DNA of 64,000 nucleotides, taken from positions 2,205,300 through 2,269,299 of the forward strand of contig JAFAYE010000001.1 in the NCBI GenBank assembly GCA_019240525.1, read 5' to 3'. The notes below the pieces were generated by a model, which was given only the letters and a program-made list of their open reading frames with translations, was not told the DNA's origin and did not search any database. The position numbers and the translations under genes were made by a program. The stretch comes from Candidatus Eremiobacterota bacterium (GTDB taxonomy: Bacteria; Vulcanimicrobiota; Vulcanimicrobiia; Vulcanimicrobiales; Vulcanimicrobiaceae). Shown here piece by piece: positions 38,715 to 54,944 of the stretch. Numbering within the stretch: the first letter of the stretch is position 1; every line of letters begins with the position of its first letter.

Positions 38715-38819
38715 CGGGATAGGAGTTGGACCCCCAAAATTGTGCGCCCCCCAATCCCACGCGCTAAGCCATCCAATTCTCGGCCCGTCAATCTAAGCCA
38801 TAACGCGTTAAGCGACAGG

Positions 38820-38960
38820 CGATCTAAACTGCGAGCACTGCGAGGCGCTGCGAGGCATTAATGCGAGGCGTTTTACGCGTTTCGATCGGCGCCGGGTTGC
38901 GCAGCTGCGAGGCTTTACGCCGCTACGCGCCTAGCGCGATGCGGCCTCGCGAGCGCGGGG
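38820..38960 (-). repeat. 3'-end repeat, copy 1
   Basis: Read on the minus strand from 38960, it starts CCCCGCGCTCGCGAGG, continues through CGCTAGGCGCGTAGCG and GCCTCGCAGCTGCGCA, and reaches CGGCGCCGATCG at 38882; a less conserved distal part with repeated TGCGAGGC extends to about 38820. It begins 4 nt after the stop of the minus-strand CPBP gene. Confidence 0.85.
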
Positions 38961-38964
38961 GGGG

Positions 38965-39723
38965 TCAGAAACCGTTCGCACGCAGCATGTAATATATGAT
39001 CGAGTAGAAACTCACCGCATTATAGATAATGTGGCCTACTGAGCTGGGTACGATCGAGCGTGTTCGCAGGTAAAGCCAACCTAGGAGGAGCCCGAGTATA
39101 AACGTACTGACTATCTGGTCGACTCCCCCCACCCAATGTATTCCAGCGAAGATCACGGCGGATACGACGACCGAGACCGTGCCGTTTGTCACTTTGATGA
39201 GACCTTCCAGCACGATGCCGCGAAAAATGATCTCTTCCACAATCGGACCAAAAATTACAAAGGCGAATAGCAACGCTGCGGCAATCAACCCAGTGGCCTG
39301 AGATAAAATGTAATGCTCGTACTGAAGATCGTAACTGCTCTGTAGTCGCATTGCTTTCATCAGTAGAGTAACGATAAGCGATGCTGCTAAGCCGGCAGCG
39401 ACCCCTAATGCAAAGCCAGCGCCTTTTGGTAACCGCAGCCCTATTGACGAAAGCGGAACCTGCAGAATAGCCTAGACGCCGAACAGCGCCAAGCACAGTT
39501 CCGCCCCGACGCGAGCCAGGCTCATTGCTACCAGCGCTTGCGGCGTCATGTTTGCCAGCCCGTGAACGCCCAACCAGCTGGCGACGTAGGCTAAGGCCAA
39601 CTCGCCGCCCGTTAGCACGAGTAATACGAGTGCTAGGAATGGCGCTAAGCGGCGAAGATTCCTGAGACCGCCGCTTCCGCTCGAAACGGTGTTTTCCGAG
39701 GCTAGCGCGGGCAAGGTCCGCAA
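38965..39723 (-). pseudogene. CPBP intramembrane metalloprotease, interrupted by in-frame TAG
   Basis: One continuous frame from about 39723 (TTG) to 38965, broken only by TAG at 39472-39474. The upstream half (to ALFGV) has two membrane helices; the downstream half continues AILQVPLSSIGLRLPKG and carries all CPBP (Abi/Rce1-like) motifs: EEIIFRG, FAGIHW and GHIIYNAV. A TGG-to-TAG change would explain the break (…FGVWAIL…). A second product could start at the ATG at 39360, but would lack the first helices. N-terminus is itself uncertain: upstream codons run into a lipoprotein-linker remnant. Members process prenylated or bacteriocin-type peptides. Confidence 0.75.
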
Positions 39724-39740
39724 TCCAAGCTTTACACCAT

Positions 39741-39776
39741 CGCGCCCGGGGCGCCGATCGGCTGCTGCGAATCCGC
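39741..39776 (-). repeat. Remnant of lipoprotein linker module
   Basis: Minus-strand sequence matches the linker DNA of the GloVer lipoproteins (TCGCAGC.GCCGATCGGC, then CCCCGGGCGCGATG) with a 1-nt insertion that destroys the QPPIG frame. It lies just before the CPBP remnant. Confidence 0.6.
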
Positions 39777-39806
39777 AGATGCGCGCCTCACTTCGCTGTT
39801 GTAATC

Positions 39807-40875
39807 AGGAGTCATATACATAATCGAGCGTAAAGAGGTCTTTACCGTCAGGCTGTTTGCAGATGCCGTACATGACGATGCCTTTGAAAGTTCTTATTAC
39901 GGAATCTAACGCCTCATCTACGGTAACGTTTTGCAGCAGTCTTGGAAGATGAGGTGCTCCCGGGATTGGCCCCGACACAATGATGTCGATTATCCTAAAC
40001 GGCGTTCCGATATTCAGGCGGCGCTTCGCGGCGGAGACTTCCGGTGCGCTTTCGATTGTGACGACGGCTGACGGCGCGCTGTACTGCGCGTATCGACTAA
40101 GGGTCAGAGCCTGTATCCTGGTCTGTAATATTGCGGTCGAAGCGCCTCCAATCGTAATCCTTGTCATTCCGGCTTGGTCTTGTATGACCGTGACATTCGG
40201 ATCGTCACGAAAAATCTGCCGGACAGTGGTTATTCCCGTGGCTTCCTGTCGCGGGGGCTGGAGATATACCGCAGGAAAAAGGAGGTGCTGTGCGCGTGGC
40301 CCGGATGATCCTTGTTCGAATGGCCGGCATTCGCCCGCGTAGTAGACCCGGGCGGTTCCCCCCACGTATGTAAGGGCTGGACGCAGGTAATCGATAACGG
40401 CGTCCATGTGTCCAACGGGTGAAGCATTCTTATCAGATGGGCGATACCACGTGGCCTCGACGAGCTGACCGTCGTATGGGCCGTGAAAGCGAACCTCGAC
40501 CACGGAACGATCCGGTACGCCATACGTCAACCCATTGAATGCACTACACGGCGTCCTTTCCAGAGCAAGCTCAAGATTCACATGGGAGTCTTGAACCGGA
40601 AAAGAGTGAAGGCAAGGGAGGTCGATGTAATCGCGCTGACCTTTGTCCGCTTGAAAATCTACCCTGGTGATTCTGCCGAGGTCATCCGCGGTGATCGTAA
40701 CCATACCGCCTCCGCGTCTGCTCCAACGCCACCAGCGGCCGAAACCTGTGGCAGGTCGCTGCGCATCAGGATGTTCCGAAAGTACCTCCCTAACGTTATT
40801 ACCGAGCGTCACGCCGGCAAGGGTGTGCAGTTCGTCTGCAGCCGTCAAAACAGCCGCTAGCAAAAACGAGATCAT
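39807..40875 (-). CDS. Secreted protein of unknown function
   Basis: About 355 aa (stop TGA at 39805-39807). Signal peptide MISFLLAAVLTAADELHT; mature part begins AGVTLGNNVREVLSEHPDA, resembling a repeat-type periplasmic domain in which a start-of-helix 'LG-x-x-x-x-V' motif recurs, and ends with a secretin/TonB N-domain-like stretch (RLNIGTPFRIIDIIVSG, VTVDEALDSVIRTFKGIVMYG). That second part recalls STN domains, but I do not claim it. Its ATG overlaps the stop of the small lipoprotein by 4 nt, so both form an operon. Confidence 0.72.
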
Positions 40876-41030
40876 TGTTTCGATCCCTTGCGCCTGGGCT
40901 TAGTGGCGTTACCGCTTTGCGGCATCGCGCCCGGCGTGCCGATCGGCGGCTGCGATCCACCGCACGCCGCCAGCAAGACTGCAGCGACGCAGCTGCTAAG
41001 TACGTAGCGGCCAAAGCCCAAGCTCCTCAT
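40872..41030 (-). CDS. Small lipoprotein consisting of signal peptide and linker
   Basis: 52 aa from the ATG at 41030. A 23-residue signal ending VAAVLLAAC with Cys at 23, then the shared linker GGSQPPIGTPGAMPQ and a basic tail (TKPRRKGSKQ). It has the same N-terminal module as the GloVer proteins but no mature domain. ATGA coupling to the secreted-protein gene suggests it is really translated. Confidence 0.65.
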   Translation of the reverse strand: MRSLGFGRYVLSSCVAAVLLAACGGSQPPIGTPGAMPQSGNATKPRRKGSKQ

Positions 41031-41216
41031 AATGCTTCTCCCTCTTCGCCGCATCAACGGATCGGCGGCATAGGATGTTCGGCCTCTGCTGCTCGGTTCC
41101 GCGGAGTAGCCGGGCCGCTCGCCATAAAAGCTGCATCGGCAGCACATCGCCGATCGGCAGGTCTTCGCTGCGGGAGGGTGGCCGGAGCGACCTGCGGTAC
41201 GGTCGAACCGCGGAGC

Positions 41217-41714
41217 ATGGCAATCTACTTTCAAGGCTTTGTATGCGATGAGGACTCCCAGCACTTGCGCGCCTGCATACGCCACCAAAGCGTCGTGTCA
41301 CTCGCGGAGATCGGCATAACCGTAGGCCGAGGCACCCCGGATGAAGCGGTGCTGCATCACGCGCGCGAGGCTGGGCGAGTGCTTATAACTGCGAACGAGA
41401 GTGACTTCGCCGTGGAAATGAAGCGTGCTGCACAACGTTGCACGCCTTCCAAGTGCTACGAAGGCGGCGGGATGATTACAGTCCCGAATGGCATGCAGTC
41501 CTTCCCATATATGACCATGAGCCGGACGATGCGGTTAGGTGAAGCCGAGATTGGATGGGATGATGTTTTCTTCCTTAACCTGCACGTTCAAGTTCAGCGC
41601 GATAGGAAGTTTCGCGTGCAGCGGTTGCCAATCTGCCCGTACTTGCTTAAGGACCACACCGAGTGCGAGACTTGCGCGCATCTCGGTATCTCGATCGAGG
41701 CGGAGCCAGGGTGA
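41217..41714 (+). CDS. PIN-like (DUF5615/Mut7-C type) domain protein
   Basis: 165 aa. The first half has the pattern of PIN-like proteins: CDEDSQHLRACIRHQ, a short strand, GTPDEAVLHHAREAGRVLIT and ANESDF, with acidic residues where the nuclease site lies. Such proteins are toxin nucleases or RNases. The C-terminal part is unlike the short family and ends with CPYLLKDHTECETC, a possible metal knuckle. No DUF433-type antitoxin is next to it. It is coupled by GTGA to a membrane protein gene. Start at 41217 is my choice; the ribosome site is weak. Confidence 0.55.
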   Translation: MAIYFQGFVCDEDSQHLRACIRHQSVVSLAEIGITVGRGTPDEAVLHHAREAGRVLITANESDFAVEMKRAAQRCTPSKCYEGGGMITVPNGMQSFPYMTMSRTMRLGEAEIGWDDVFFLNLHVQVQRDRKFRVQRLPICPYLLKDHTECETCAHLGISIEAEPG

Positions 41715-42163
41715 GCCTTACGTGGCTAATCGGCTGCATTAATAGCCAGGTAGCTCCTACCCAATCTGGCATCGTTCCGGCTTGGACAGCTATTGTCACT
41801 GCTGAATCGAGTGCGGTCCTCGTCATAAGTGTGTTTTGGGCTGCTAGACAGTTTTTTCTTACTCGAAGAATTGCGCGAGTTACCGAGACCGGCCGCCTCG
41901 TGGACAACTGGCTTGAAGAAACTCCGCTTGAAAGGCTCATCGAGAAGCTGGACCTCTGTCCAGAGCCACGTCAAAATGCGCTTGTGCGTGTGATCGAAGC
42001 CACTGCGGCCGCGCAATATTTCGCCGCTTGGCGCGACGTGCGAATCCGCTTTCGCGATCGGGACCTCACACGGATACCCGCACGTTGGCTGCGAGCCGAC
42101 TCGCGGGCATCAGTCCTGACCGGCGCATCCGCGGCACTGGGAAGCCTTGTTCACCCTTGTTGA
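41711..42163 (+). CDS. Small membrane protein coupled to PIN-like gene
   Basis: 150 aa from the GTG overlapping the previous stop (GTGA). One strong hydrophobic helix at about 20-45 (WTAIVTAESSAVLVISVFWA), followed by a charged cytoplasmic part (RIARVTETGRLVDNWLEETP). No family recognised. The tight coupling suggests that the PIN-like protein works with it at the membrane. Confidence 0.6.
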   Translation: MSLTWLIGCINSQVAPTQSGIVPAWTAIVTAESSAVLVISVFWAARQFFLTRRIARVTETGRLVDNWLEETPLERLIEKLDLCPEPRQNALVRVIEATAAAQYFAAWRDVRIRFRDRDLTRIPARWLRADSRASVLTGASAALGSLVHPC

Positions 42164-42243
42164 AAGCATTGGTTAGAGAGTTAAGCGTTGCCGCGGCGAA
42201 CGTTCTCTGCGATTCGGCCGTTCAGCTTTCGGAGGCGTGGCAT

Positions 42244-43518
42244 ATGGGAACCTTAGCTCTTAGTCGCTTCGCGCTTATGGTCAGCGCTGCAACCGTATTA
42301 CTAGCAGCCTGCGGCGGATCACAGCCGCCGATCGGCGCGCCGGGCGCTTTTCCGCAAACTCCGGCGTTCTGGGGCCGCACCAATAGCACGAACTACAAAG
42401 TGGCGTATAGCTTCGCCGACACCACTGACGGCAGTTTCCCCGTCGCTCCCGTAGTCTACGTGGGCGGCACGTTCTATGGCACGACAGAATATGGCGGCGA
42501 ATGCAATACCAACCCCACCTGCGGGACCGTGTACAGCCTAAGCCTGATTGGGCACGAGAAGGTGCTCTACCGTTTTGCTAGCGCCCCAGACGGAACTTAC
42601 CCTCTTGCCGGCTTGACCGACGTCGGTGCCACCTTCTACGGTACGACCGTCGTGGGCGGCTCGAACGTGTGCGGCAACCGCTCGTATTACTTCAGCTGCG
42701 GGACGGTCTTTAGTGTCACGCCGGGCGGCTCGGAGAAAGTGTTGCATAGCTTCGGCAATCCTCCTGACGGCAACTTTCCCGCGGCCGGGCTCATCAACGT
42801 AAACGGCACGCTTTACGGCACGACCCAATTTGGCGGAAAAGGTAGGAAGTGCAACTTCAGCTGCGGGACGGTCTTTAGCATCACGATGAGCGGCAAGGAG
42901 AGAGTGCTTCACACGTTCAGCGGCACCAATGGCGGGGGCCCCGTCGCGCCCCTGATCGCGGTCAAGGGCAAGCTTTACGGCACGACGGAAACTGGCGGCG
43001 CGTACAACGCCGGTACGGTGTTTAGCATGACGCTGAGCGGAAAAGAGAAAGTGCTGCATAGTTTTGGCAACGGAACCGACGGTAAAGAGCCTATGGCTGC
43101 CCTGATCGACGTAAACGGCACGCTGTACGGCACGACGCAGGTTGGTGGCGCGAATAATTGTTATCAATATACCGCCTGCGGGACGGTCTTTAGCATCACG
43201 CCAGGCGGCAAGGAAAAAGTGCTGCATGTCTTCGGCGGATCCGATGGAGCTGGCCCTGTCGCACCCCTAATCGAGGTTAAGGGCACGCTTTACGGTACGA
43301 CGGAAAGTGGCGGCAGCTACTCTTGCGGCGGCGGTGGTTGCGGGACGATCTTTAGCATCACGCCAAACGGCACGGAGACAGTGCTGCACAGTTTCGGCAG
43401 CGGCACCGATGGCGCGAATGCCTACGCTCCTTTGACCGACGTGAATGGCACGCTGTATGGGACGACAGCGCGTGGTGGTACACACGGCTCGGGAACCTTC
43501 TTCGCGTTGAGTCTATAA
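42244..43518 (+). CDS. Seven-repeat GloVer-type propeller lipoprotein 1
   Basis: 424 aa from the ATG at 42244, GGAGG 8 nt upstream. Signal peptide with Cys23 (VLLAAC), shared linker GGSQPPIGAPGAFPQ, then seven repeats of about 50 residues, each with a hydrophobic strand (VLHSFG), DG, a LIxVNG strand and the hallmark G-x-LYGTT-x-x-GG (TIGR03803 'Gloeo_Verruco' family). Seven units fit a seven-bladed propeller. Five repeats have a pair of Cys in the loop behind YGTT (C…CGTVF). Function of the family unknown; likely displayed on the outer membrane. Confidence 0.88.
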   Translation: MGTLALSRFALMVSAATVLLAACGGSQPPIGAPGAFPQTPAFWGRTNSTNYKVAYSFADTTDGSFPVAPVVYVGGTFYGTTEYGGECNTNPTCGTVYSLSLIGHEKVLYRFASAPDGTYPLAGLTDVGATFYGTTVVGGSNVCGNRSYYFSCGTVFSVTPGGSEKVLHSFGNPPDGNFPAAGLINVNGTLYGTTQFGGKGRKCNFSCGTVFSITMSGKERVLHTFSGTNGGGPVAPLIAVKGKLYGTTETGGAYNAGTVFSMTLSGKEKVLHSFGNGTDGKEPMAALIDVNGTLYGTTQVGGANNCYQYTACGTVFSITPGGKEKVLHVFGGSDGAGPVAPLIEVKGTLYGTTESGGSYSCGGGGCGTIFSITPNGTETVLHSFGSGTDGANAYAPLTDVNGTLYGTTARGGTHGSGTFFALSL

Positions 43519-43648
43519 CGCGAGCGATCCACGGCATCAGACGTCCAACCCCGAACTCGTGGACCTCATAGCCGATCGCTTCGCTGGAGTGCGGCGACGG
43601 CGGTGGCCAACATACTAGCCACTACTTTCTTCCGAGGGAACTTTGCTG

Positions 43649-44140
43649 ATGACTACTTTCACTTTGAGCCGCGTCGCACTGAGCATCAACTTAGCCGCAG
43701 CGCTGCTTTCTGCTTGCGGCAGAGCGCAGCCGCCGCTCGGCGTGCCCGGCGCAATCCCGCAAGCGCCAGCTGGCGCAGCTCGGTCCGCGCAAGCACCGCG
43801 ATCGTTCCTATATATGGCTCAATGCTGTGCGGGGTTTTCGTACAAGGGCAGCGTCACACTCTACGATCTCGGACTTACCAAAGACGCTCACACGATAACG
43901 AAGGGTGTCTCAAACCCCTGGGCTCTTACCGTCGACCGAGCCCGACGACTCTATATGGTCGGCTTTGGTTATACGCAGGGCGTCATTGAATTTGACGCCG
44001 GAAGTGACCGACCGTCTCGCCGCGTTAAGCTATCCTACGCATCGGCGGCGGCGACGGACGCTTCCAATAATCTCTACGCTGCATCGTGCCCCGCGTGCCA
44101 ACGCGCCGCGATCCAAATCGATGGCATGGCCGTTGGGTAA
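43649..44140 (+). pseudogene. Truncated beta-propeller lipoprotein
   Basis: 163 aa from the ATG at 43649 with GAGGG upstream. Has the same 23-residue signal (ALLSAC) and linker (RAQPPLGVPGAIPQ) as its neighbours, then about two propeller blades (FLYMAQCCAGFSYKGSVTLYD, PWALTVDRARRLYMVG, ATDASNNLYAASC) and an abrupt end. Full-length relatives at 55.1 and 60.0 kb have more than 300 aa. The 3' end runs into an opposing decayed gene, so the gene was probably cut by a recombination near 44100-44120. It may still make a short lipoprotein. Confidence 0.6.
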
Positions 44141-45340
44141 GAACAAGACATTGCGCGGCCCTTCGTTCCCATCGCCTCCCCACATCATGCCGTTGACGAC
44201 AGAATGAAGACGGGGAACTAGCGCGCTGTAGGCTACGGGAGAACGGGTTTTCAAATCGGCGACGGTAATCCGCCAGTCTAGGGAGTTTGACCCACCAACA
44301 AAAGACCTCCAGGAGCATCTTCGGGTGCTGCGTTTTCTCGAACCATCGGCGAACCCAGGGTAGCGAAGTGATTGAGTCCCCGCGTTCTTTCGTCTCGCGT
44401 AGCACGCGTAAGCCTAACTTTGTCAACGCCGCCGGGTTTGGCGGGCTGCTTTTCAGAGAGACCTGATAGGTCACGCTCTTAGGCCATTCCGCAAACCAGA
44501 GCCGGCCGTAAATGCTGCTGAGGTCTTCACTCACTCGGAAATCATCCGTAACAATCCGCTCCGACGTGATAAACTGAGCGATTCGCGGCGCCCACGCCAT
44601 GATCACGGCCAGGCTTATCTGATCTTGAAATGCTTCGCACAGCCAGTCGCTATACGCCGAAAAGAGGGATGCGCTACCGTCGAGCCGCTCGCTGTTAACA
44701 CCGCCAACAGTAAGGGTTGCTACGGCTCGCGGAATCCGATCGTCGAAAGTTGCGTAGCTCTTACCATTCCGTGCAACGTCGAAGGGCAACATGAGAATCT
44801 TCTGGCTGTGCGAGGAGGCTCTGACCGTGGAACCATTCTCGAACGTCACCGTTATTTGCTCTGTGGGATAATCATCGGTATGGAAGGTTCGGGCACTATA
44901 CTCGTCGCCGAGCCACTTTCGTTGGTTCTTATCCTCATAAAAGAGGCTTTTGAACAAAGTCCTCGGTTCGCTGAGGTCGGCGCCGTCACCAGCGCACTGT
45001 CTGAGACCGACATTCACAAAATAGTCCACGTCGTACTGCTGCGCTTGATCTTCGATGAGCGTTGGCGAGGGAGCTCGTTGCGGCTCAGTAAACAGCGCCG
45101 TCAGTAACGCTTCGATCTTATCAGCGTCCACAGTCTGATCGTCGATCGCGAACGTGTTACCAGTTCGCTGAATTACGGTATGCTCGTACTGCGCTGGGCC
45201 TAAGCCACCCCAGCTCGCTACAATGTCAATGCGAAGCACGCTCGTTGCCGGAGGGGTCGCCACATGCGCCAAGCCACTGCCGCCACGGAGACAGCAGTGC
45301 TTGCTACGATGACTGCGAGGTAAAGGCCGAAAAGCTTCAC
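44030..45340 (-). pseudogene. Decayed membrane-anchored hypothetical protein
   Basis: The long central frame (to 45272) encodes a protein-like segment (SVLRIDIVASWGGLGPAQYE, EPRTLFKSLFYEDKNQRKW, EDLSSIYGRLWFAEWPKSV). Both ends look shifted. Upstream, another frame from the GTG at 45340 gives a good membrane helix (LFGLYLAVIVASTAVSVAAV) that stops at 45218. Downstream, near 44300, a third frame continues sensibly (SLDWRITVADLKTRSPVAY, then GNEGPRNVLFLPNGHAIDL) while the main frame becomes basic and random. I therefore read it as one gene with two frameshifts. No family recognised. Confidence 0.5.
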
Positions 45341-45683
45341 CAGGCTACCATGCCGGTCGCGCCGATCAGTGCGCGCTCCGCCTTTCATTACGACCGATTA
45401 CTTTACGACCGATTACTTTCCGACAGGTACCGCCAGATCGCGGACTGCACGGCAACATCCGAGTTGTCAATCACGATAAGAGTGCGCGCGTCAGAGCTCG
45501 CAATGCCTACGGGCCTCTTTTATATCGCACATCTCTGGAGGCACACGAAACTGCTCTTGCCAGGGGGCCGCTTCTTATCCTTTCGGAATGCGACGAGCTT
45601 TCTGGGTGGCTCTTCGTGAGCTTCCGGATTCTAGCGGCTTGCTCGGTCGGGCCGTGGGCGTTTATTGGCGAACGTTTTTATAG
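45341..45683. other. Intergenic region with short tandem repeat
   Basis: 343 bp. A 15-bp unit ACGACCGATTACTTT is repeated exactly twice at 45390-45419, followed by a partial third. No gene that I can support; the plus-strand frame here has neither a ribosome site nor protein-like composition. Upstream signals of the hydrolase gene should be at the right end. Confidence 0.5.
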
Positions 45684-47201
45684 GTGCACCACTTGAGGAG
45701 GCTTTGCGGAAAGTTGACACGACGATTAAACGTTCGTAAGACTCGAGTACTCACTCTGATCGCGACACTGATTTACACTGCTTTTGCGCTGCCGGTCCCA
45801 ACGTCGCCTCAAGAGCAAAGCCTAGGCCTCCAGAGCGCGGCTTGCCTAATTGGAAAAGCTGAGCTTCCTGCGGAATGTGGTACCTTCGCCGTCTACGAGA
45901 ATCGTCGTGCGCATTCCGGCCGCATTATCAAGCTCAGCTTCATTGCGCTGCGAGCGTCTCGCAGACGTGAAGGTACCATCGCGTTCTTAGCAGGCGGTCC
46001 AGGTCAAAGTGCGACCGCCTTCGCTCCGATGGTGGCCGACCGTCACTTTGGGCAAGCGCTATCGACCTTACGGGCCAGTTACGACATTCTCTTTCTGGAC
46101 AACCGCGGTATGGGGCACTCGAACCCTTTCCCGTGCGATTTCGCGCCGCGAACTGATCCGAGCGCCTATTTCTTGCAGCTTTGGCCGGATGCGCTGGTAG
46201 CAGGATGCCGAGCTACGAGTTCGTCCTCTCACGTTCTTGCTCAGTACAATACCGCGAACGCCACCGACGATCTCGATGACCTCAGAGCAGCATTGCGTAT
46301 AAAGGATCTCGTTTTATATGGAGGATCTGACGGAACATTCTTTTCATTTATCTATCTGCGACGGCACCCCGCGTCAGTCAAAAGCGCTGTCCTGTCGGGC
46401 GTGGCGCCCCCGGGTTTTCAGCCTTTGCCGGGTGCACCCGATGGAGCGCAAAGAGCGCTAAGCGATCTGATAGCGGATTGCGAGAGCGATTCCGTTTGTC
46501 ATTCACATTTTCCCAACTTCGGGCACCAGTTTTACGCTGTTTTGCACCGTTTCGATACCGGTCCGATCCCAATGACAATTAAAAGTCCTGGTAGCGGTGA
46601 TCTGCCCGTTCGACTTTCAAAAGAGGTCTTCGTTGACCAAATGCGCCAGGTCTTGGACGACCCAAACAACGCCGCATATATCCCTTACATTATCGACAAG
46701 GCCTATAATCGAGAATACGGGCCTCTTGTCGAAATGATTAATGCCGTAAGTCTCGGCTTAGCGAACGCCCTAAATTGGGGTGCTTTTCTGTCATATAGCT
46801 GCTCCGATTGGATGCCGTTCGTCACCGCTAGCGAAATGACGGCTGCGGCACAGGGCTCGTTCGCGGACGAGCTTCGCTTTATGGCGCAAAAGCGAGCCTG
46901 CCTTATATGGAATGTACCGCCAATGCCTCCAGACTTCAACAAACCGGTCACAAGCGCTGTACCAATATTGATGATCGATGGTAGCGACGATCCGGCGACC
47001 CCGCCCCGCTATGCTCAAGAGGAACTGCCGTATTTGAAAAACGCAAAACTGATCATTGTGGAGGGCGCCGGGCACGCCGAGGAACACGCTTGTACGGACC
47101 GGCTGATCGTGCAGTTCATCGAGTCGCAATCTGGAGCCAATCTGCCCAGCGCCAGTTGTAAGAACAGCTTCGCTCGTCCGCCGTTCGCGACTTCAGGCTA
47201 G
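45684..47201 (+). CDS. Secreted alpha/beta hydrolase (tripeptidyl-aminopeptidase-like)
   Basis: 505 aa when started at the GTG at 45684; a later TTG near 45710 behind GAGGAGG is possible. Signal-anchor at about 20-38, then the hydrolase fold: oxyanion GGPGQ (104-108), LDNRGMGHSNP, nucleophile Ser215 in YGGSDGTFFS, acid Asp435/436 in DGSDDPATP and His464 in GAGHAEE. A TAP-like C-terminal domain is included. Relatives are secreted peptidases or esterases of the S33 clan. In most relatives the elbow is GGSYG; Asp replaces Tyr here. Copy 2 of the 3'-end repeat follows the stop by 24 nt. Confidence 0.85.
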   Translation: MHHLRRLCGKLTRRLNVRKTRVLTLIATLIYTAFALPVPTSPQEQSLGLQSAACLIGKAELPAECGTFAVYENRRAHSGRIIKLSFIALRASRRREGTIAFLAGGPGQSATAFAPMVADRHFGQALSTLRASYDILFLDNRGMGHSNPFPCDFAPRTDPSAYFLQLWPDALVAGCRATSSSSHVLAQYNTANATDDLDDLRAALRIKDLVLYGGSDGTFFSFIYLRRHPASVKSAVLSGVAPPGFQPLPGAPDGAQRALSDLIADCESDSVCHSHFPNFGHQFYAVLHRFDTGPIPMTIKSPGSGDLPVRLSKEVFVDQMRQVLDDPNNAAYIPYIIDKAYNREYGPLVEMINAVSLGLANALNWGAFLSYSCSDWMPFVTASEMTAAAQGSFADELRFMAQKRACLIWNVPPMPPDFNKPVTSAVPILMIDGSDDPATPPRYAQEELPYLKNAKLIIVEGAGHAEEHACTDRLIVQFIESQSGANLPSASCKNSFARPPFATSG

Positions 47202-47225
47202 AGCTCTTTATCATGTGTGTGGCAT

Positions 47226-47376
47226 CCCCGCGCTCGCGAGGCCGCATCGCGCTAGAAGATAAGCTAATCTCGCAGCCACGGGGCCCGTCGCCGATCAGCG
47301 TTGCCTATTGCGGCCTCGTAGTCTAGCAGCGACTCCTAGCGGCGTGCTCGTAGTCTCGCAGTTTTAGATCGTGCTG
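47226..47376 (+). repeat. 3'-end repeat, copy 2
   Basis: Plus-strand reading starts CCCCGCGCTCGCGAGG and GCCGCATCGCGCTAG, identical to copies 1 and 6, then diverges in the middle (AAGATAAGCTAATCTCGCAG) and resumes with CGCCGATCAGCG; the distal end (CTCGCAGTTTTAGATCG) matches the far end of copy 1. It begins 24 nt after the hydrolase stop in the same polarity. Confidence 0.75.
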
Positions 47377-47483
47377 CGACGCAGCGCAGCGGCTTGGATT
47401 GTGCGGCGGCCTCGATTGAGCTCGGTTACGTTAACGAGGTTCGAAGAGCACGATGGCTTTCGTTGCGCGAGGGTTTCTCACCA

Positions 47484-47552
47484 AGTGAGTATCTGGACTT
47501 CATTGGCGTGCCACAACACAGAGGCGTTCCTACCAGGTTGATTGATGTTACA
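47484..47552 (+). pseudogene. Possible FRG-domain remnant
   Basis: A 23-residue stretch (SEYLDFIGVPQHRGVPTRL then IDVT) resembles the conserved QHxGxPTRLLDxT core of FRG domains. No start or ribosome site suits it, and downstream it runs antisense into the TetR gene, so at best it is a fragment. Confidence 0.25.
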
Positions 47553-47593
47553 GCAGAACGCAGGTCGCTCTCTCTAGTCTTCACCATCCAGCA

Positions 47594-48223
47594 TCAAGGT
47601 GCTGACGCGACATTTCTCCGAGGCATGAGTACCAAGTCGGCCGCTTCCTCGGCGTCATTGAGGAGCCTCTCACGTGACGTGCCCATCCGTGCCCGCATCG
47701 TCAGACCGCGGACAAGGTCGACGGCCTGGCTCGCTCGCGCGGCTACTGGAAAGTCTGGCGGAACTTCTCCCGCGCTCATCCCATCGCGGAAACGGCGTTC
47801 CACTAGCTCGATGGCGCCATCTGCCGCCATCTTCACGAACTGGTGGACATCTGCATCGTCCACGAGTGGCGCGACGCACATGAGAAGACATCCCGGGGCG
47901 GATCCTTCCTCGGTCGCTGTTTCTACGGCGTTCCTCATGAAGGCGCCCAGCGAGTCGCGAAGTGTGCTCGGCGAGTGGAGTGCCGCCGCAGCAAGGGCGC
48001 CTTTCCTCTCGGCGTAGGCCTTGAGAACGCGCAAGAACAACGTCCGCTTGTCCCCGAAGATGGAATACAGGCTCGGCCGGCCCACGCCCATCCCGGCGAC
48101 GAGATCGTCCACCGTCACTGCATCGTAGCCCTTAGACCAGAACACCTGGATCGCGTTTCCCAGCGCGGCGCTCTCATTGAAGCTGCGCGGGCGTCCGCGC
48201 GGCCTGGCAGCCTTTTGAATCAT
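47594..48223 (-). CDS. TetR/AcrR-family regulator
   Basis: 209 aa. N-terminal HTH (about 15-60: GNAIQVFWSKGYDAVTVDDL, GVGRPSLYSIFGDKRTLFLR), then a helical ligand domain of the YcdC-like kind (PGCLLMCVAPLVDDADVHQF). Divergent from the SDR gene, with repeated TTCGAA-containing sites between them; probably represses itself and the SDR. The pair looks more like a transferred regulator/enzyme module than like its lipoprotein-rich surroundings. Confidence 0.9.
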   Translation of the reverse strand: MIQKAARPRGRPRSFNESAALGNAIQVFWSKGYDAVTVDDLVAGMGVGRPSLYSIFGDKRTLFLRVLKAYAERKGALAAAALHSPSTLRDSLGAFMRNAVETATEEGSAPGCLLMCVAPLVDDADVHQFVKMAADGAIELVERRFRDGMSAGEVPPDFPVAARASQAVDLVRGLTMRARMGTSRERLLNDAEEAADLVLMPRRNVASAP

Positions 48224-48226
48224 TTA

Positions 48227-48286
48227 GTTCGAAAATCCTTGCGCTTGACCATCTGATCCATTATTGTACCAAAAGGTTCGAAAATC
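48227..48286. promoter_or_regulatory. Candidate TetR operator sites
   Basis: The 11-mer GTTCGAAAATC occurs at 48227-48237, touching the TetR start, and again at 48276-48286; flanks CCTTGCG and CGCAAGG are inverted to each other. Position in the divergent promoter region fits operators for the TetR protein. No experimental motif is known to me. Confidence 0.4.
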
Positions 48287-48350
48287 GCAAGGCGGACCCG
48301 GCGGTGCGGCGCCGACCCACTCGACCTAGGGATTCGTCACGGAGAAGCGC

Positions 48351-49320
48351 ATGGAACATTCGAGAGCTCTCGTCACCGGTACCACCTCCGGGCTCGGATA
48401 TGCGGCAGCCCGCTTGCTCGCCGCCCAGGGCTATCGCGATGTCATCGTCACCGGGCGCAGCCTGGGCCGGGTCCGGGAAACGGCCGCTCAGCTCGCGGTT
48501 GAGACGCACACCCAGGTCTTCACACCCCTGGAGCTGGATCTGAACGCGTCGGCCAGCGTTCAGTCCGCCCTCGCCGAACTCGTCAAGCGAGGCCTGCCGA
48601 TCGATTTCCTACTGCTCAACGCCGGAATGGTCGGTGGTAAGAAGCGCGTGCTCACTGCTGCGGGCGTCGAGGCGGCTCAGGCGCCACTCATCGGCCATCA
48701 TCAACTGACGGTCGGGTTGCTCCGGGCCAATTTACTGAGTCCCCACGCGCGGATCGTTATCGCCGGCGCGGAACCTGCCCGTGGGGACGTCCCTATGTTC
48801 AGCTACACCGACGTGGCGGCTCTTGCGGCCAAGCAATTCCTCGGAGACCGCAGCGCCGCGGTGGAAGCCCTGATCCGCAACGGACCGAACGTGAAGTACG
48901 AGCCCAACCGGGCGTATGCCGACGCGAAACTCATCATTGCTTGGTGGGCGGCGGCGCTGGCGCGCCGGCTGCCCTCTGGCATGGCCGTCTACGCCGTTGC
49001 GCCCGGCAGCGCGCCCGACACCCAGGCGGTGCGAAACCTTGGTCCAGTCATGAAGTCGCTGATGCCGCTAATAAAGCTCATCCCCGGCATGTCCCACGCC
49101 GGAGACGGCTGCTCGTCGCTACCTCCAAGCATCGAAGTTCGGAACCGACGTCTCGGGGCAATTCTTCGCCTCGGCGCCCAAGAAGCTCACCGGCCCAATC
49201 GAGGCGATGCGCCACCCACACTTGCACGATCGCACCAACCAGGAAGCCGCGTGGCAGGCCGTCGCCAAGGTCTCCGGCGCCGACTGGTCTGGCCCTTCAT
49301 CTTTGACCGCGGTGTCTTGA
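48351..49320 (+). pseudogene. Short-chain dehydrogenase/reductase with frameshift
   Basis: SDR enzyme: NAD(P) motif GTTSGLGYAAARLLA (10-24), NAG in LLLNAGMVGG, YADAKLIIAWW where the Tyr-x3-Lys pair lies, and PGSAPDTQAVRN. Around 49100, after LIPGMSHAG, the frame becomes random, while the +1 frame continues normally (ARRYLQASKFGTDVSGQFF, ASAPKKLTGPIEAMRHPH) to TGA at 49318-49320. The span has one base more than a multiple of three, as expected for a 1-nt insertion. A sequencing error cannot be excluded. Divergent from and probably controlled by the TetR gene. Confidence 0.8.
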
Positions 49321-49363
49321 AGGACCGCCAGCGCTGCGAGCAACTTGCGAGGGGCGATGCTGG

Positions 49364-49442
49364 GCGATCGGCGTCGGGCTGCGCAACTGCGAGGCCCTAC
49401 GCCGCTAAGCGCCTAGCGCGATGCGCGCTCGTGGGCGCGGGG
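49364..49442 (-). repeat. 3'-end repeat, copy 3
   Basis: Minus-strand reading from 49442: CCCCGCGCCCACGAGC, GCATCGCGCTAGGCGCTTAG, CGGCGTAGGGCCTCGCAG, then GCGCAGCCCGACGCCGATCG. Weak similarity may continue leftwards to about 49330. It lies 21 nt behind the stop of the minus-strand secreted protein gene and faces the SDR remnant on the other side. Confidence 0.85.
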
Positions 49443-49463
49443 AGGCGCCGGCCCTACAGGCTA

Positions 49464-49976
49464 CTAATGAGGCGCGTAACTATCGACGATTGCTGCTATC
49501 CGCTGGGTCAATGCAAGACGATATTTGTAAGGGTTCGGCGGGCTTGCTGGAAGGGTCGCATCCAATGCCGCGACTTGGTCGTAAATGCCCTTCCAAGTCG
49601 GTCCGGCGAAGCCGGTGGCCATGCATGCGAGTTCCATCGCGGCGCGCAGGGCATGAGCGCTAGTAGGCGTCTTCGGCGGTGACTTCATTATCCAGATCGT
49701 CGCAGCTCCCGATTTCGCGTCGATGCCGACGAAATGAACAATGGGATCGTAGGTTGGCATGTCCATAACGGCCTTGCCGACGACGTTTATTGTGATATTA
49801 GGACTCGCTTCCGCGTCTTTGGTAGCCTTCAGGAGCGTGGCCACATCTTGGGCAGTAAACTGAATGTCGCCCGCGGACGGAGCTCCCGGGGATGCGCTCG
49901 GCGATTGAGCAAGAGCCGGCGTAGCAACACCGATGCCAAAAGCCAACACTAAAGCGCTGAACCTCATGTGTGACAT
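49464..49976 (-). CDS. Secreted protein of unknown function
   Basis: 170 aa. Signal peptide MSHMRFSALVLAFGIGVATPALAQ-like (cleavage after ALA at about 23), a short Ser/Pro/Ala linker, then a compact domain (DIQFTAQDVATLLKATKDAE, ITINVVGKAVMDMPTYDPIV, ALTQRIAAIVDSYAPH). AGGCG precedes the ATG at 49976. No family recognised. Confidence 0.7.
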   Translation of the reverse strand: MSHMRFSALVLAFGIGVATPALAQSPSASPGAPSAGDIQFTAQDVATLLKATKDAEASPNITINVVGKAVMDMPTYDPIVHFVGIDAKSGAATIWIMKSPPKTPTSAHALRAAMELACMATGFAGPTWKGIYDQVAALDATLPASPPNPYKYRLALTQRIAAIVDSYAPH

Positions 49977-50074
49977 TTCAGCGGACGCCTTTAGCTCGCC
50001 TTTTTCAGATCACACCACGCGTTAAACTGTGTGCTCGCTGCGAGGCAGTTGCCTCGATGTTGCAATGCACAACG

Positions 50075-50140
50075 CCACTCGGCGCCGGGCTGCGCAACTG
50101 CAAGGCTTTACGGACGCTTAGGCCAGCGCGGCGGGTGCGA
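50075..50140 (-). repeat. 3'-end repeat, degenerate copy 4
   Basis: Retains the central GCGCCGGGCTGCGCAACTGC and AAGGCTTTACGG pieces, but the CCCCGCGCTCGCGAGG end is lost. Not adjacent to a stop codon. Confidence 0.5.
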
Positions 50141-50400
50141 GCAAGCTAGGCGTTCCGCACTTCTGATGCCGCAATTCGCTCATCGCCGCGGCCGACTGGA
50201 AAGCGATCATCATTTACATTTTCGAAGTTGCAGTGAAAACCATGAAGGCCGTTCTGTAGCGCGGCCGCCCCGTGCAAACTTTACAGCGCCCTTTGCAAAA
50301 AATCCGATACGTAGAAAACGCTATGTGGTCGTAAGGTTTTTACCGTAAGGCTGCAATGGGTGGCTTTGCGCGATGCATTCGACGTGCATCGATCCGCGTT

Positions 50401-50481
50401 GCGATTGGTGCCGGGCTGCGCAGCTGCGAGCCGCACTAAACCGCTAAGCGTCTAACGCGATGCGGCGTCGCGAGCGCGGGG
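50401..50481 (-). repeat. 3'-end repeat, copy 5
   Basis: Minus-strand reading from 50481: CCCCGCGCTCGCGACG, CCGCATCGCGTTAGACGC, TTAGCGGTTTAG, GGCTCGCAGCTGCGCAGC. It lies 7 nt behind the GloVer 2 stop in the same polarity. The inner stem keeps pairing through a U-G wobble. Confidence 0.85.
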
Positions 50482-50488
50482 TTGCGAT

Positions 50489-51757
50489 CTACGGTGAGAG
50501 TGTAAAGACCGTTCCGCAATGATTGAGGCGCCTGCATCCTGAGCCGCCGGTTTCTGTCGTGCCGTAGAGCGCGCCGTTTACTTCGAGTAAGGCGGCTTCC
50601 GGCTCCAAACCATCCGAGGCGCGAACAAAGTCGTGCAGCACCATCTCCACGCCAGTCGTGCTGACGCTATAAATGGTTCCGCACCCCGCGCCACAACTCG
50701 AACCCCCGCCATAACTCGTTGTACCGTATAGCGTGCCGTTCACGTCGATCAATCCCGCGTCGGGATATTCCCCATCGGCGCCGCCAGTAAAGCTATACAG
50801 AACCTTCTCTCTGCCGTCGGTGGTAACGCTGTAAACTGTCCCGCAGCCGATATTGAAGTCGCATGACGTCCCTCCGCCACCAGTGGTCGTTCCGTACAGC
50901 AAACCTTTGACGCTCACCAGGCCTGAAGAAGCATTCTCGCCATCGCTCCCGCCCATGAAGCTGTACAGCACCTTCTCTGCACCCCGCGGGCTTATACTGT
51001 ATATCGTCCCGCAGCCCGTGGGATAGCAGCCTGGACCACCCCAGATCGTCGTGCCGTACAGAGTTCCCTTTACGGCGATCAAGCTGGCCTGCGGCATGTA
51101 GCCATCGGAATTGCCGGTGAAACTGTGCAGGATCTTCTCCTTACCGCTCGGGCCAATGCTAAAGACGGTTCCGCAGCTCGCGCAACCTGATCCACCCAAG
51201 TCGGTTGATCCATAAAGCGTACCGTTGAAATCGATCAGGCTTGCCTCTGGGTTCGCTCCATCTGGCGACCCGGTAAAAACGTGCAGTACCTTCTCGGTGC
51301 CGCCCGTGGTTATGTTGTAAACTACACCGCAACCGCCGAGAGAAGCGCCGCAACTGCCGGCGCCGCCGTTGACCGTCGTGCCATATAGGATGCCGTCCAA
51401 ATCAACCAACCCCGCGCGCGGATTGGCCCCATCCGCCCCGGCGAACGAATACAACACTTTTTCAGCCCCGCTTGGGCTGACGCTGTAAACGGTTCCTTTC
51501 TTGTGCGTGCCGCCATATTCGGTCGTGCCGTAGAGCGTGCCGTTCACCTCGATCAAGCTGGCTCGCGGGTGCGCTCCGGTCAATGTGTGGAAGCGATACA
51601 ACAGCTTGTACGATCGCGCCGATATGTTGGTTTGCGGCATCACACCGGGCGCGCTGATCGGCGGCTGGGATCCGCTGCAGCCCGCGAGCAATGCAGCCGC
51701 GAGCAATGCAGCGACGCTGATCGTAAGCGCGGATCGGGGGAAGGTTTTCATCTGCAT
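50489..51757 (-). CDS. Seven-repeat GloVer-type propeller lipoprotein 2
   Basis: 422 aa. Signal peptide with Cys27 (ALLAGC), extended by a duplicated 13-bp unit (CGAGCAATGCAGC twice near 51690), shared linker SGSQPPISAPGVMPQ, then seven YGTT/YGST repeats (GTLYGTTEYGG first, GALYGTTETGG last). Cys pairs occur in the loops of six repeats (for example CGASLGGCG and CDFNIGCG). ATG at 51757 or 51751. Copy 5 of the 3'-end repeat follows its stop. Confidence 0.88.
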   Translation of the reverse strand: MQMKTFPRSALTISVAALLAAALLAGCSGSQPPISAPGVMPQTNISARSYKLLYRFHTLTGAHPRASLIEVNGTLYGTTEYGGTHKKGTVYSVSPSGAEKVLYSFAGADGANPRAGLVDLDGILYGTTVNGGAGSCGASLGGCGVVYNITTGGTEKVLHVFTGSPDGANPEASLIDFNGTLYGSTDLGGSGCASCGTVFSIGPSGKEKILHSFTGNSDGYMPQASLIAVKGTLYGTTIWGGPGCYPTGCGTIYSISPRGAEKVLYSFMGGSDGENASSGLVSVKGLLYGTTTGGGGTSCDFNIGCGTVYSVTTDGREKVLYSFTGGADGEYPDAGLIDVNGTLYGTTSYGGGSSCGAGCGTIYSVSTTGVEMVLHDFVRASDGLEPEAALLEVNGALYGTTETGGSGCRRLNHCGTVFTLSP

Positions 51758-52157
51758 CGTCTCCAGAAGCTGACCTGATTACCTGCTGGGAAGTTCGGCG
51801 ACGGCAGCCAGTTCCATCGCAACACGCCGAGTGCTGCACCGGATCGCCCCTGATCCGCAGGTGCGGGAACGCTGGCGATATTATTTCCGAAGCCTGTCCA
51901 GCTTCCGGAGGATGCTGATTCGCTATCTATTTAGAGCATTCGACGCCGACAGGGGCGCGAGCATTCGGGCCAGCGCGTCGAGGCGTGGTTCAAGCGAGAG
52001 ATCGTGCCGAAGCTCGATGCCTTCACTCTCTCGGATATCGCGGCGGCGGCCCGTGCAAAGGTCCCGCATCCCCGCCATTGGCAAGCACTGCACAGTTGAT
52101 AGATCACACATAGAGGCGCGAGGACCTCAGGGCAAACGTCGTCAAAAAAGAACGCCG
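51758..52157. other. Region upstream of GloVer 2 and the 52-kb operon
   Basis: 400 bp between divergent genes. It contains a short remnant coding stretch (51935-52099) and otherwise should hold two promoters. I see no other structure. Confidence 0.5.
51935..52099 (+). pseudogene. Fragment of an HTH-containing protein C-terminus
   Basis: From a TAG at 51932 to TGA at 52097-52099 the frame reads REHSGQRVEAWFKREIVPKL, then DAFTLSDIAAAARAKVPHP and RHWQALHS. The WFxREIVPxL plus PHPRHWxAL pattern looks like the C-terminal helix-turn-helix end of a larger bacterial protein from which an internal segment is missing. No start codon suits it. The parent family cannot be named with confidence. Confidence 0.35.
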
Positions 52158-52991
52158 ATGGGGGTTTGGGGAGCCGGCATCTATTCGGATGACACAGCGA
52201 CAGATGTTCGCGACCAATATCGCGACTATCTAGCCGAAGGGTTGGATGGCATTGCGGCTACTGACAAGCTTCTCGTCTTATTCAAGGACTCGCAGGATGA
52301 CGCAGATGATGGACCGCCATTCTGGCTGTCACTGGCGACAACACAGTTTCGCTACGGTAGGCTAGAAGATCGCGTCCGCGACCGAGCTCTAAAAATCATA
52401 GACGGCGGAAGCGACATGGCCCGATTCGAGCGCAATGGAAAACTCAAGCGCGCGCGTTCGCAGGTCCTCCAGAGACTACGCGCTCAACTTGTCGGACCGC
52501 AGAGACAGGCTGCAAAAGTCCGTCGCGATATTCCGAGCGAATGCGACTGGGAGCCAGGAGAGGTGGTCGGGTTCAAGCGCAATTCAGGGGAATGGATAGC
52601 GCTGCACGTCCAAGGCATCGGTGAACAGCGCCGCAGCCGCTATCCCATTGTGTGTGTTCTCGACGCGCCCTTCGAGCAAATAGAGCAGGCTGATCAGCAT
52701 ACTCCCGTCTTGCGAACTTTGGTCATTCCCCGGCGCTATTGTCGGGTCCCGGACAAAGACAACTTTGGACCTCACCCTTTTTTCACGATTTTTGGCCTAA
52801 AAAAGCGTGATTTGACTTCCGAGCGGGTACGGAGGCCCGGAAAAAAGATCGCGCCCAAGATTACCGTTGAGGGCCACGGCATCCCGCCGCTAACGCCGTG
52901 CACTGCTTGGAAGTATCTTGACAATTTCTGCGACGAAGATCTTGAACGGAACCATAAATTGCCCGATCAGCACGACGCTACAAACGATTAA
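52158..52991 (+). CDS. Uncharacterised protein with MGxWGxG N-terminus
   Basis: 277 aa from the ATG at 52158. The start MGVWGAGIYSDDTATDVRDQ is the signature of DUF4259-like and related uncharacterised proteins of bacteria. A middle part is rich in Arg/Lys, and the C-terminal half contains DWEPGEVVGFKRNSGEWIAL and RYPIVCVLDAPFEQIEQ, beta-rich and hydrophobic. Function unknown; in other genomes such proteins often lie in immunity or accessory clusters. First gene of a six-ORF, closely coupled run ending at 54755. Confidence 0.7.
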   Translation: MGVWGAGIYSDDTATDVRDQYRDYLAEGLDGIAATDKLLVLFKDSQDDADDGPPFWLSLATTQFRYGRLEDRVRDRALKIIDGGSDMARFERNGKLKRARSQVLQRLRAQLVGPQRQAAKVRRDIPSECDWEPGEVVGFKRNSGEWIALHVQGIGEQRRSRYPIVCVLDAPFEQIEQADQHTPVLRTLVIPRRYCRVPDKDNFGPHPFFTIFGLKKRDLTSERVRRPGKKIAPKITVEGHGIPPLTPCTAWKYLDNFCDEDLERNHKLPDQHDATND

Positions 52992-52993
52992 AG

Positions 52994-53098
52994 ATGGGAA
53001 ACTCCACCCCGTCCTTCTCTTGTAGCATAGAAGCCGCGCTGCTCGCACCCAACGGCGGATCGCAGCCGCCGATCGGCGCGCCGGGCGGTGCCACGTGA
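52994..53098 (+). CDS. Mini-ORF carrying the lipoprotein linker (34 aa)
   Basis: ATG at 52994 lies 2 nt after the previous stop, and TGA at 53096-53098 overlaps the GTG of the next gene as GTGA. The product ends LLAPNGGSQPPIGAPGGAT, that is, the linker of the GloVer lipoproteins with the lipobox Cys replaced by Pro-Asn. It could serve as a translational coupler, or be a relic of an inserted repeat. No separate ribosome site seen. Confidence 0.4.
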   Translation: MGNSTPSFSCSIEAALLAPNGGSQPPIGAPGGAT

Positions 53099-53598
53099 CT
53101 AACAACTCGCAAATGGCGCGCGACTTTGCGTATTACGCTGAGCTTTATGTTACCTGGTTCGATGAGGTGGTATCTGATGAGGCAACGCCGCTTAGCATGC
53201 GCAGGCTTCACGAGGTACTGGCATTACTGCAGGCTGCTGCCGCGCGGCTTACGGCAATTCCGCCGGACGACGAAGCAGATAGCGATTTCGAGGGTCGCGA
53301 CGTTGTGGGCGCCCTTAGGGCAAAGCTACCCACAGACGCATACAGCGTCGTGTTTGATCCCTTCGAGTACGATCCGCTCGAAGTGAACCCGCCAAAACCG
53401 GTGATGGCGACGATCGCCGACGATCTTGGCGACATCTACAACAATGTGAAGGAAGGCCTAGCGCTATACCGGGCCGGTCAAATCCAAAACGCCCTATGGC
53501 ACTGGCATTTCAGCTACTATGCTCACTGGGGTCGGCACCTGAGCAACGCGCAGCCGGCCATCTGGCAATACTTACGTGAAGGAAACTCGGTACAGTGA
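53095..53598 (+). CDS. DUF5063-like protein
   Basis: 167 aa, GTG start. Conserved features are the N-terminal ARDFAYYAELYVTWFDEVV, a central YSVVFDPFEYDPLE, and the family hallmark ADDLGDIYNNVKEGLALYRA followed by ALWHWHFSYYAHWGRH. Known only as a domain of unknown function, mostly helical. Overlaps its neighbours on both sides by 4 nt. Confidence 0.75.
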   Translation: MTNNSQMARDFAYYAELYVTWFDEVVSDEATPLSMRRLHEVLALLQAAAARLTAIPPDDEADSDFEGRDVVGALRAKLPTDAYSVVFDPFEYDPLEVNPPKPVMATIADDLGDIYNNVKEGLALYRAGQIQNALWHWHFSYYAHWGRHLSNAQPAIWQYLREGNSVQ

Positions 53599-54008
53599 CA
53601 GATTTTCTTAGCGAAGCTAACCGTGTAATGGACAAACTTTCGTCGGATTCACGCATATCGGCGATTGCTTTGACATCGGACGCGTATGAGTATCTGATTT
53701 TGACTGACTCGACTGATGAGTATTTTGCGAGCGATGCGTGGGCCGCCGATTTTGACTTACATCTTCGCGAGCCGGAAGAACTCGGTGGGCTTATGATGCG
53801 CAAAGGAAATCTCGCTGGGGCTGGCGTTACATTCCTGTTCGGTCGCGCCACGTGGGCGAAGATCGACCCCATCGATCCCGACACCGAAAAGCTCGCTCGA
53901 TCTGGTCTCTTCGCAGTTCACGATCCGAAGGGCCTAATACGAGCTTTGCAAGAGTTTTGTACACCAAACATGATCCGGTTCGCCGACGATTTCCAATGGA
54001 CAAAATAG
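53595..54008 (+). CDS. Uncharacterised protein, possibly degenerate nucleotidyltransferase fold
   Basis: 137 aa; GTG overlaps the DUF5063 stop (GTGA). Sequence such as RISAIALTSDAYEYLILTDS, GVTFLFGRATWAKIDPIDPD and GLFAVHDPKGLIRALQEF has the order of strands seen in aminoglycoside-type nucleotidyltransferases, yet the GS…DxD metal motif is not present. I treat the resemblance as weak. Its end overlaps the next mini-ORF. Confidence 0.6.
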   Translation: MTDFLSEANRVMDKLSSDSRISAIALTSDAYEYLILTDSTDEYFASDAWAADFDLHLREPEELGGLMMRKGNLAGAGVTFLFGRATWAKIDPIDPDTEKLARSGLFAVHDPKGLIRALQEFCTPNMIRFADDFQWTK

Positions 54009-54106
54009 AGTTAACGGGCCCATCTCTTGCACCCAACGGCGAATCGCAGCCGCCGATCGGCGGGTCGGGCGCGATACCACTGCAGTTGATCACTTGTGAA
54101 CTATAA
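53996..54106 (+). CDS. Mini-ORF carrying the lipoprotein linker (36 aa)
   Basis: ATG at 53996 lies inside the end of the preceding gene; TAA at 54104-54106 lies inside the start of the following one. The middle reads SLAPNGESQPPIGGSGAIP, closely matching the 52994 mini-ORF (APNG in place of the lipobox AACGG). Two such bridging ORFs in one operon make chance less likely. Confidence 0.4.
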   Translation: MDKIELTGPSLAPNGESQPPIGGSGAIPLQLITCEL

Positions 54107-54755
54107 AGCCACGCTCCGCTGGACAGTGACCTTTATGGCAGCAGCCGCCACAGGCGCACTCCTGTTCACATTCCATCAGATAACCTGGAACCGTGATTTT
54201 ACGCTGTTAGACCAGCCTATGCGAGTCGCTGCTAATCGCACGATAACCAATTTATTTACTGTACCGGTGAACGCGCCTTATGAGATCAACATCTATGTCC
54301 AGGCAAAGGTACCGTACGCTGATTGCTTACTTGGCCAAAGCGGTTATCTCCAGGAACGATGCAGTCCGTATTACCGAGTCATAGACGTGGTCTGGCTCGT
54401 CCACGATAGGGAAGGTCGAGTTCTTCGGCAGGGCGTGTCGGAAGGGACCTGTTGCACTTACACTGTCGACGAGCATAAGAATCCGGTAGTTTTCACAACG
54501 TTAGGCGACTTTAGACTGGCGGTGGGCACCACGGCCTACCTTGAGTTGAAGAACAGGCGAGATGTATCGCAACTCGAAAACCTCGCGCCACGCATTACTG
54601 TGCGACGCAGTGATCCCATGGAGTCGGAGCTGGGCCTAACGGCGTGGTCATTGCTGGGCATAGCCTCTATGCTGCTCATTAGCCTAGTGCTACTCGTTGT
54701 GACTTGGTTGCAATACCGCGCGTCACAAGCGAATCGTCAGTACAGTACGCGATAG
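54096..54755 (+). CDS. Membrane protein with two helices and an external domain
   Basis: 219 aa, GTG start at 54096. Helix 1 at about 10-28 (TVTFMAAAATGALLFTF), an extracytoplasmic beta-rich region with five Cys (ADCLLGQSGYLQERC, GTCCTYTVD), and helix 2 at about 182-206 (TAWSLLGIASMLLISLVLLV). No family recognised. Last gene of the 52-55 kb run; copy 6 of the 3'-end repeat follows 24 nt later. Confidence 0.68.
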   Translation: MNYKATLRWTVTFMAAAATGALLFTFHQITWNRDFTLLDQPMRVAANRTITNLFTVPVNAPYEINIYVQAKVPYADCLLGQSGYLQERCSPYYRVIDVVWLVHDREGRVLRQGVSEGTCCTYTVDEHKNPVVFTTLGDFRLAVGTTAYLELKNRRDVSQLENLAPRITVRRSDPMESELGLTAWSLLGIASMLLISLVLLVVTWLQYRASQANRQYSTR

Positions 54756-54779
54756 GCATGTTCTCTATGTTCCATTTCG

Positions 54780-54858
54780 CCCCGCGCTCGCGAGGCCGCA
54801 TCGCGCTAGGCGCTTAGCGGCTCGCCGGTGCGCAGCTGCGCAGCCCGGCGCCGATCGC
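54780..54858 (+). repeat. 3'-end repeat, copy 6
   Basis: Plus-strand CCCCGCGCTCGCGAGG, CCGCATCGCGCTAGGCGC, TTAGCGGCTCGCCGG, then GCGCAGCTGCGCAGCCCG and GCGCCGATCGC. Same polarity as the upstream membrane protein gene, 24 nt behind its stop. Confidence 0.88.
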
Positions 54859-54944
54859 AATGCCCATTACAGCCTTGCAGCGCGAGGCGCAAATCTCCCA
54901 TGCTGGTGTTTGCCGCGCCGCCAGCTACCTAGCAGGGTAAGCGG

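Follow-up and report, generated by a model that had tools for sequence, protein, structure and literature searches.

The 16 kb downstream of secA in a genome of the uncultured phylum Eremiobacterota hold five copies of a DNA element, each lying behind the 3' end of a gene and in the polarity of that gene. With about an even chance of being right, we regard it as an intergenic DNA repeat that sits at gene 3' ends, is mosaic, specific to its lineage and low in copy number, and resembles the REP/BIME repeats. The element is recognizable by its sequence and boundaries, keeps its polarity in relatives, has a mosaic make-up, belongs mainly to one genus and in one case has stayed in place while the gene in front of it was replaced. 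The DNA analysed, here called the window, is a stretch of 64,000 nucleotides, C1:2205300-2269299 of genome G000, which has 2.8 Mb in all.

The gene secA (36063-38714, forward strand) bounds a variable region on one side as its fixed anchor. The first copy, c1 (38715-38960, reverse strand), is a full-length element of 246 nt, head to tail. It begins 4 nt after the stop codon of a CPBP/Rce1-like protease gene (38965-39351, reverse; Pfam E 2e-23) and occupies the entire gap from there to the secA stop. Its head module is at 38883-38960 (reverse), and its tail module (38715-38751, reverse) adjoins the secA stop; the GGGATAGGAGTT-type sequence of this tail is present after secA in relatives too. 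Copy c2 (47226-47376, forward) starts 24 nt past the stop of an alpha/beta hydrolase gene (45714-47201, forward; E 2e-15) and agrees fully with the consensus for the first 30 nt only, the rest being divergent. Copy c3 (49354-49442, reverse) starts 21 nt past the stop of a secreted-protein gene without Pfam matches (49464-49976, reverse). On the opposite side of c3, an SDR gene (48351-49682) seems to shift frame close to its 3' end, immediately before the copy. Copy c4 (50380-50481, reverse) lies between tandem genes, 7 nt past the stop of an SQPPI-type lipoprotein gene with GloVer-type 'GTLYGTT' repeats (50489-51757, reverse). Copy c5 (54780-54879, forward) follows the stop of a membrane-protein gene without Pfam matches (54096-54755, forward) by 24 nt. 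Downstream of c4 there is a sixth, partial copy lacking the head (c3b, 50053-50130, reverse).

The five places, the distances to the upstream stops and the location of four of the five copies in convergent gaps had all been proposed in the initial annotation and were found again, the copies by BLAST against the consensus with E values of 1e-32 to 1e-10. The copies were placed at 38883-38960 (reverse), 47226-47296 (forward), 49365-49442 (reverse), 50402-50481 (reverse) and 54780-54857 (forward), and the headless one at 50079-50130 (reverse). These are the only full copies found in G000; a whole-genome BLAST search and a covariance model found none outside the 16-kb stretch. No Pfam transposase was present among ten window proteins scanned.

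Sites that follow the 3' ends of unrelated genes in the sense of those genes, crowd together in a single island and vary in the middle bring to mind integron attC sites or a CALIN, an attC cluster without integrase. However, the RYYYAAC...GTTRRRY core pair is absent from all five window copies, three of which are on the reverse and two on the forward strand, so that both orientations occur inside one island. No integron integrase scored over the curated cut-off in 31 genomes, although a CALIN would not need one. An integron or attC origin was rejected on these grounds and is very improbable.

An alignment of 22 copies has a strongly conserved head, CCGCGCYCGCGAGGCCGCATCGCGYTAG, which is sharply bounded and begins at or just past a stop codon. 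A variable stretch of TTAGC-like motifs follows, and after it CTCGCAGCTGCGCAGCCCGGCGCCGATCG, a chain of short palindromes. Full copies run on via CTCGCAG repeats, CTTAACGCGTT and a G-rich tail up to AACTCCTATCCC, and this tail can abut the end of a second gene, classically secA. Short palindromes abound in the body, as do TTAGC and CTCGCAG motifs, and its length varies. Copies measure 80-430 nt, the far end being undefined in most of them, and a tail-to-tail pair of full copies occurs in G002 and in G005. The mosaic construction is evident in c1, which is 92% identical to one G002 copy over nt 1-123, 88% identical to a G005 copy over nt 178-246 and 95% identical to a second G002 copy over its last 37 nt. 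Identity within a genome (0.660) was close to that between genomes (0.649; permutation p 0.13), showing no clustering by genome. A recent burst inside each genome was therefore rejected. Directly beside two copies in G005 (L050:440-700 and 2500-2600), there are AAAATTGACCCACC repeats that look like insertion-sequence ends.

About 37 copies were found in 14 genomes, 12 of them from one genus of soil-dwelling bacteria and two from other genera. Most of the 18 genomes of the genus have 1-6 copies each, and none was found in several. Outside the genus, among 99 genomes of the family, single loci occur in G031 and G060, which represent two other genera; a few weaker matches elsewhere have E values of 1e-4 to 6e-4. 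The matching named records are metagenome-assembled genomes of Candidatus Eremiobacteria/Eremiobacterota, with isolate names that include palsa and pasture. Viral contigs gave no exact pattern match and plasmid and phage records gave no match, so a virus or plasmid origin was rejected. The relatives are draft metagenome assemblies that are only about 78-88% identical to G000 at the SecA end, which makes a comparison within one species impossible.

The rule that the element lies at gene 3' ends in gene polarity is general across the copies from the 14 genomes. Distance and polarity were tabulated by hand for 37 copies, with approximate gene calls from a home-made hexamer gene finder. The strand of the element is that of the upstream gene in about 33 of the 37, against 51% for random intergenic placement. 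The head is within 60 nt of the upstream stop in 23 of 37 (chance 5.6% by the same placement), a count that includes two genes reading into the element and falls to about 18 without weakly scored genes. The copies are not fully independent, four of them being beside secA in G000, G005, G014 and G015 (by contig end). All are extragenic save those at L061 and L062, where the element provides the stop codon of the gene and forms an in-frame gene end. In relatives the rule withstood the refutation that the initial annotation had set for it, random polarity or distance in genome-wide copies. The same annotation had named a target preference as the main competing explanation, since four of the five copies lie between converging genes. 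That concern was justified in so far as polarity is trivial in convergent gaps, but tandem gene pairs, where it is informative, still hold 8-10 copies in sense and 0-1 in antisense orientation, depending on the gene-score threshold. Divergent gaps hold 2-3 copies. The description of the carrier genes as unrelated holds within the window; across the genus the carriers are mostly exported proteins or lipoproteins, along with regulators of adenylate-cyclase/NB-ARC-like/TPR type, named by their sequence appearance.

Group IIC introns also insert behind unrelated genes with polarity, and the element shares this polar position with them. It differs from these introns in having no intron RNA and no Rfam match, and its 80-430 nt are too short for an intron with a reverse-transcriptase gene.

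In G003 the end of a cyclase/NB-ARC-like/TPR gene is intact, and its copy's head starts 4 nt past the stop. In G002 the head is preceded by the stop of a HAF-repeat-like lipoprotein gene and then by a 45-nt stub of such a cyclase/NB-ARC-like gene end; across 55 nt, the sequence leading up to the head shares 84% identity with the G003 gene end. The position of the stub between the stop of the new gene and the element implies that the front gene was replaced and the element stayed. A paralogue of the gene in G003 has the same stop followed by CCAC, then diverges and has no element. The comparison offers direct, though single, evidence that the front gene was swapped with the element kept, and that the head starts at a junction.

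Orthologues of the c2 hydrolase, found in several genomes at 45-56% identity, and those of the c3 gene, at 64-74%, are located elsewhere and lack the element. Because of these bare orthologues a fixed unit of gene and element was rejected. Together with the G002 replacement, they leave the suggestion that the two generally travel as a unit without support.

The chief rival holds that the element is a MITE-like non-autonomous transposable element which inserts with the head facing gene 3' ends and is mobilised in trans by a putative transposase that prefers gene ends as targets. Such an element would account for the sharp head boundary, the gene-end polarity at many non-homologous genes, the empty paralogous site in G003, the orthologues lacking the element and the loci in two other genera. 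On the other hand, no terminal inverted repeats or target duplication are visible at c1, and the far end, where defined at all, is variable rather than fixed. The copy number is very low, and two copies of one genome differ as much as copies of different genomes do, which argues against a recent burst. We consider this rival unlikely.

The second rival is a selected 3'-end regulatory element of genes for exported proteins and regulators, acting as a terminator, an mRNA 3'-end protector or a stop-codon safety cassette. The fixed sense position, the conserved head and the skew of carriers to exported proteins favour it, and a selected function could lie behind the strong conservation that the head shows across genera (G031 and G060). 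Stops in all three frames occur within 60 nt on the sense strand in 11 of 36 copies, with 2.1 expected, compared with 5 on the antisense strand, with 2.9 expected. Since the copies are related, these stops fit a safety role and simple homology alike. Against regulation are the orthologues that do without the element and the lipoprotein family described below, most of whose genes have none. An intrinsic terminator was rejected, because no terminator-like site coincides with a copy and no copy has a U-tract terminator. A consensus fold and covariation are missing as well, and on balance a regulatory role is probably not the explanation.

The initial annotation had drawn two stems in the element and offered a 3'-UTR structured RNA as one explanation. 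The stems can be drawn in c1, but across the 22 copies the share of paired cells is 83.1%, compared with 83.0% for shuffles, and covariation in the stems, proposed there as a check, is not above that of shuffles. The RNAalifold consensus reaches only -3.95 kcal/mol with almost no covariation. Folding z-scores of single copies are mostly near 0, c3 being the exception at -2.2, and no Rfam family matches the element. The structured-RNA explanation fails in the face of these results, and a genuine conserved 3'-UTR RNA has next to no probability.

The element shares its extragenic location and the mosaic arrangement of its modules with the REP/BIME repeats. The latter also occur in convergent spaces and have been proposed to be recombination hot spots (PMC1525189), and usually number more than 100 copies per genome (PMC2817692). 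The REP/BIME unit is short (about 20-65 nt), palindromic and of high copy number, and is characteristically associated with a RAYT transposase. By comparison, the element has 80-430 nt, a single fixed orientation to the upstream gene and a tendency to cluster in islands. Its 1-6 copies per genome are far below the usual REP numbers and count against a REP-like nature.

Under the preferred reading, that of a mosaic repeat of gene ends, we infer that copies spread by homologous or illegitimate recombination together with horizontal exchange between gene-end regions. The arena of exchange would be the hypervariable lipoprotein island next to secA. Such repeats may be tolerated at gene ends, and shared gene ends may in turn favour the swapping of genes, the element acting as a DNA recombination or boundary module rather than as a folded RNA. 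No recombinase or transposase was found linked to the copies, which counts against this reading, as does the fact that just one clear stub and one vacant paralogous site were seen. In a bolder reading, which we hold to be doubtful, the element would be the fixed end in a gene-exchange system that works without an integrase. The shared gene-end modules on the secA side would serve as recombination anchors, through which whole upstream genes, mostly for surface lipoproteins, would be replaced in an integron-like turnover without an integron. If the element were such an anchor, an uncultured phylum would have a simple route to reshuffling its surface lipoproteins with no dedicated recombinase. 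Taken as no more than an ordinary repeat, it still illustrates cleanly both a strict orientation relative to genes and a hypervariable site that directly follows the essential gene secA.

In the relatives examined, the genes that come after secA differ and often encode SQPPIGAPG-type lipoproteins. Several contigs break off 2-141 nt past secA, which would be expected of a variable or repeated junction. The lipoprotein family is large and clustered, with a common LLAGCGGSQPPIGAPG-like N-terminus and varied repeat bodies (window 42160-63998; G000:C1:2687600-2691000). Its N-terminus is matched 20 times in G000, with about eight of the matches in or beside the island, and the c4 gene is the only one with a head directly behind it. 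The element is consequently no fixed part of this gene family.

A simple attL/attR model, in which a site-specific island is flanked by direct repeats of the secA end, does not fit, because G003 has a secA-end-like fragment 38 kb away that is inverted with respect to secA. Fragments like the secA 3' end are also found beside element tails in L063, L067 and L069, and short insertions behind secA in G016 (L105) and G006 (L108) terminate in roughly 30 nt copied from the secA 3' end.

Cas1-family genes of about 440-560 aa (L112:13512-15173, L118:3946-5637 and L140-L151) are present in 8 of the 18 genomes of the genus, with up to seven matches in G016. No CRISPR-like array was found in the surrounding DNA examined, and they possibly belong to Cas1-solo mobile elements. 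Cas1-solo was rejected as the mover of the element: such genes lie near some copies in G003 and G016 and were not found in the carriers G000, G002, G005, G015 and G017, some of which are incomplete genomes. Several of the Cas1-family genes come in pairs with a partner (about 370-395 aa) to which no Pfam family applies, and two lie just downstream of secA. In L101, L103 and L105, from G001, G003 and partly G016, the same secA tail is followed by a second, unrelated intergenic body (GTGCAAACTTTGCA, AAAACGCTATAT).
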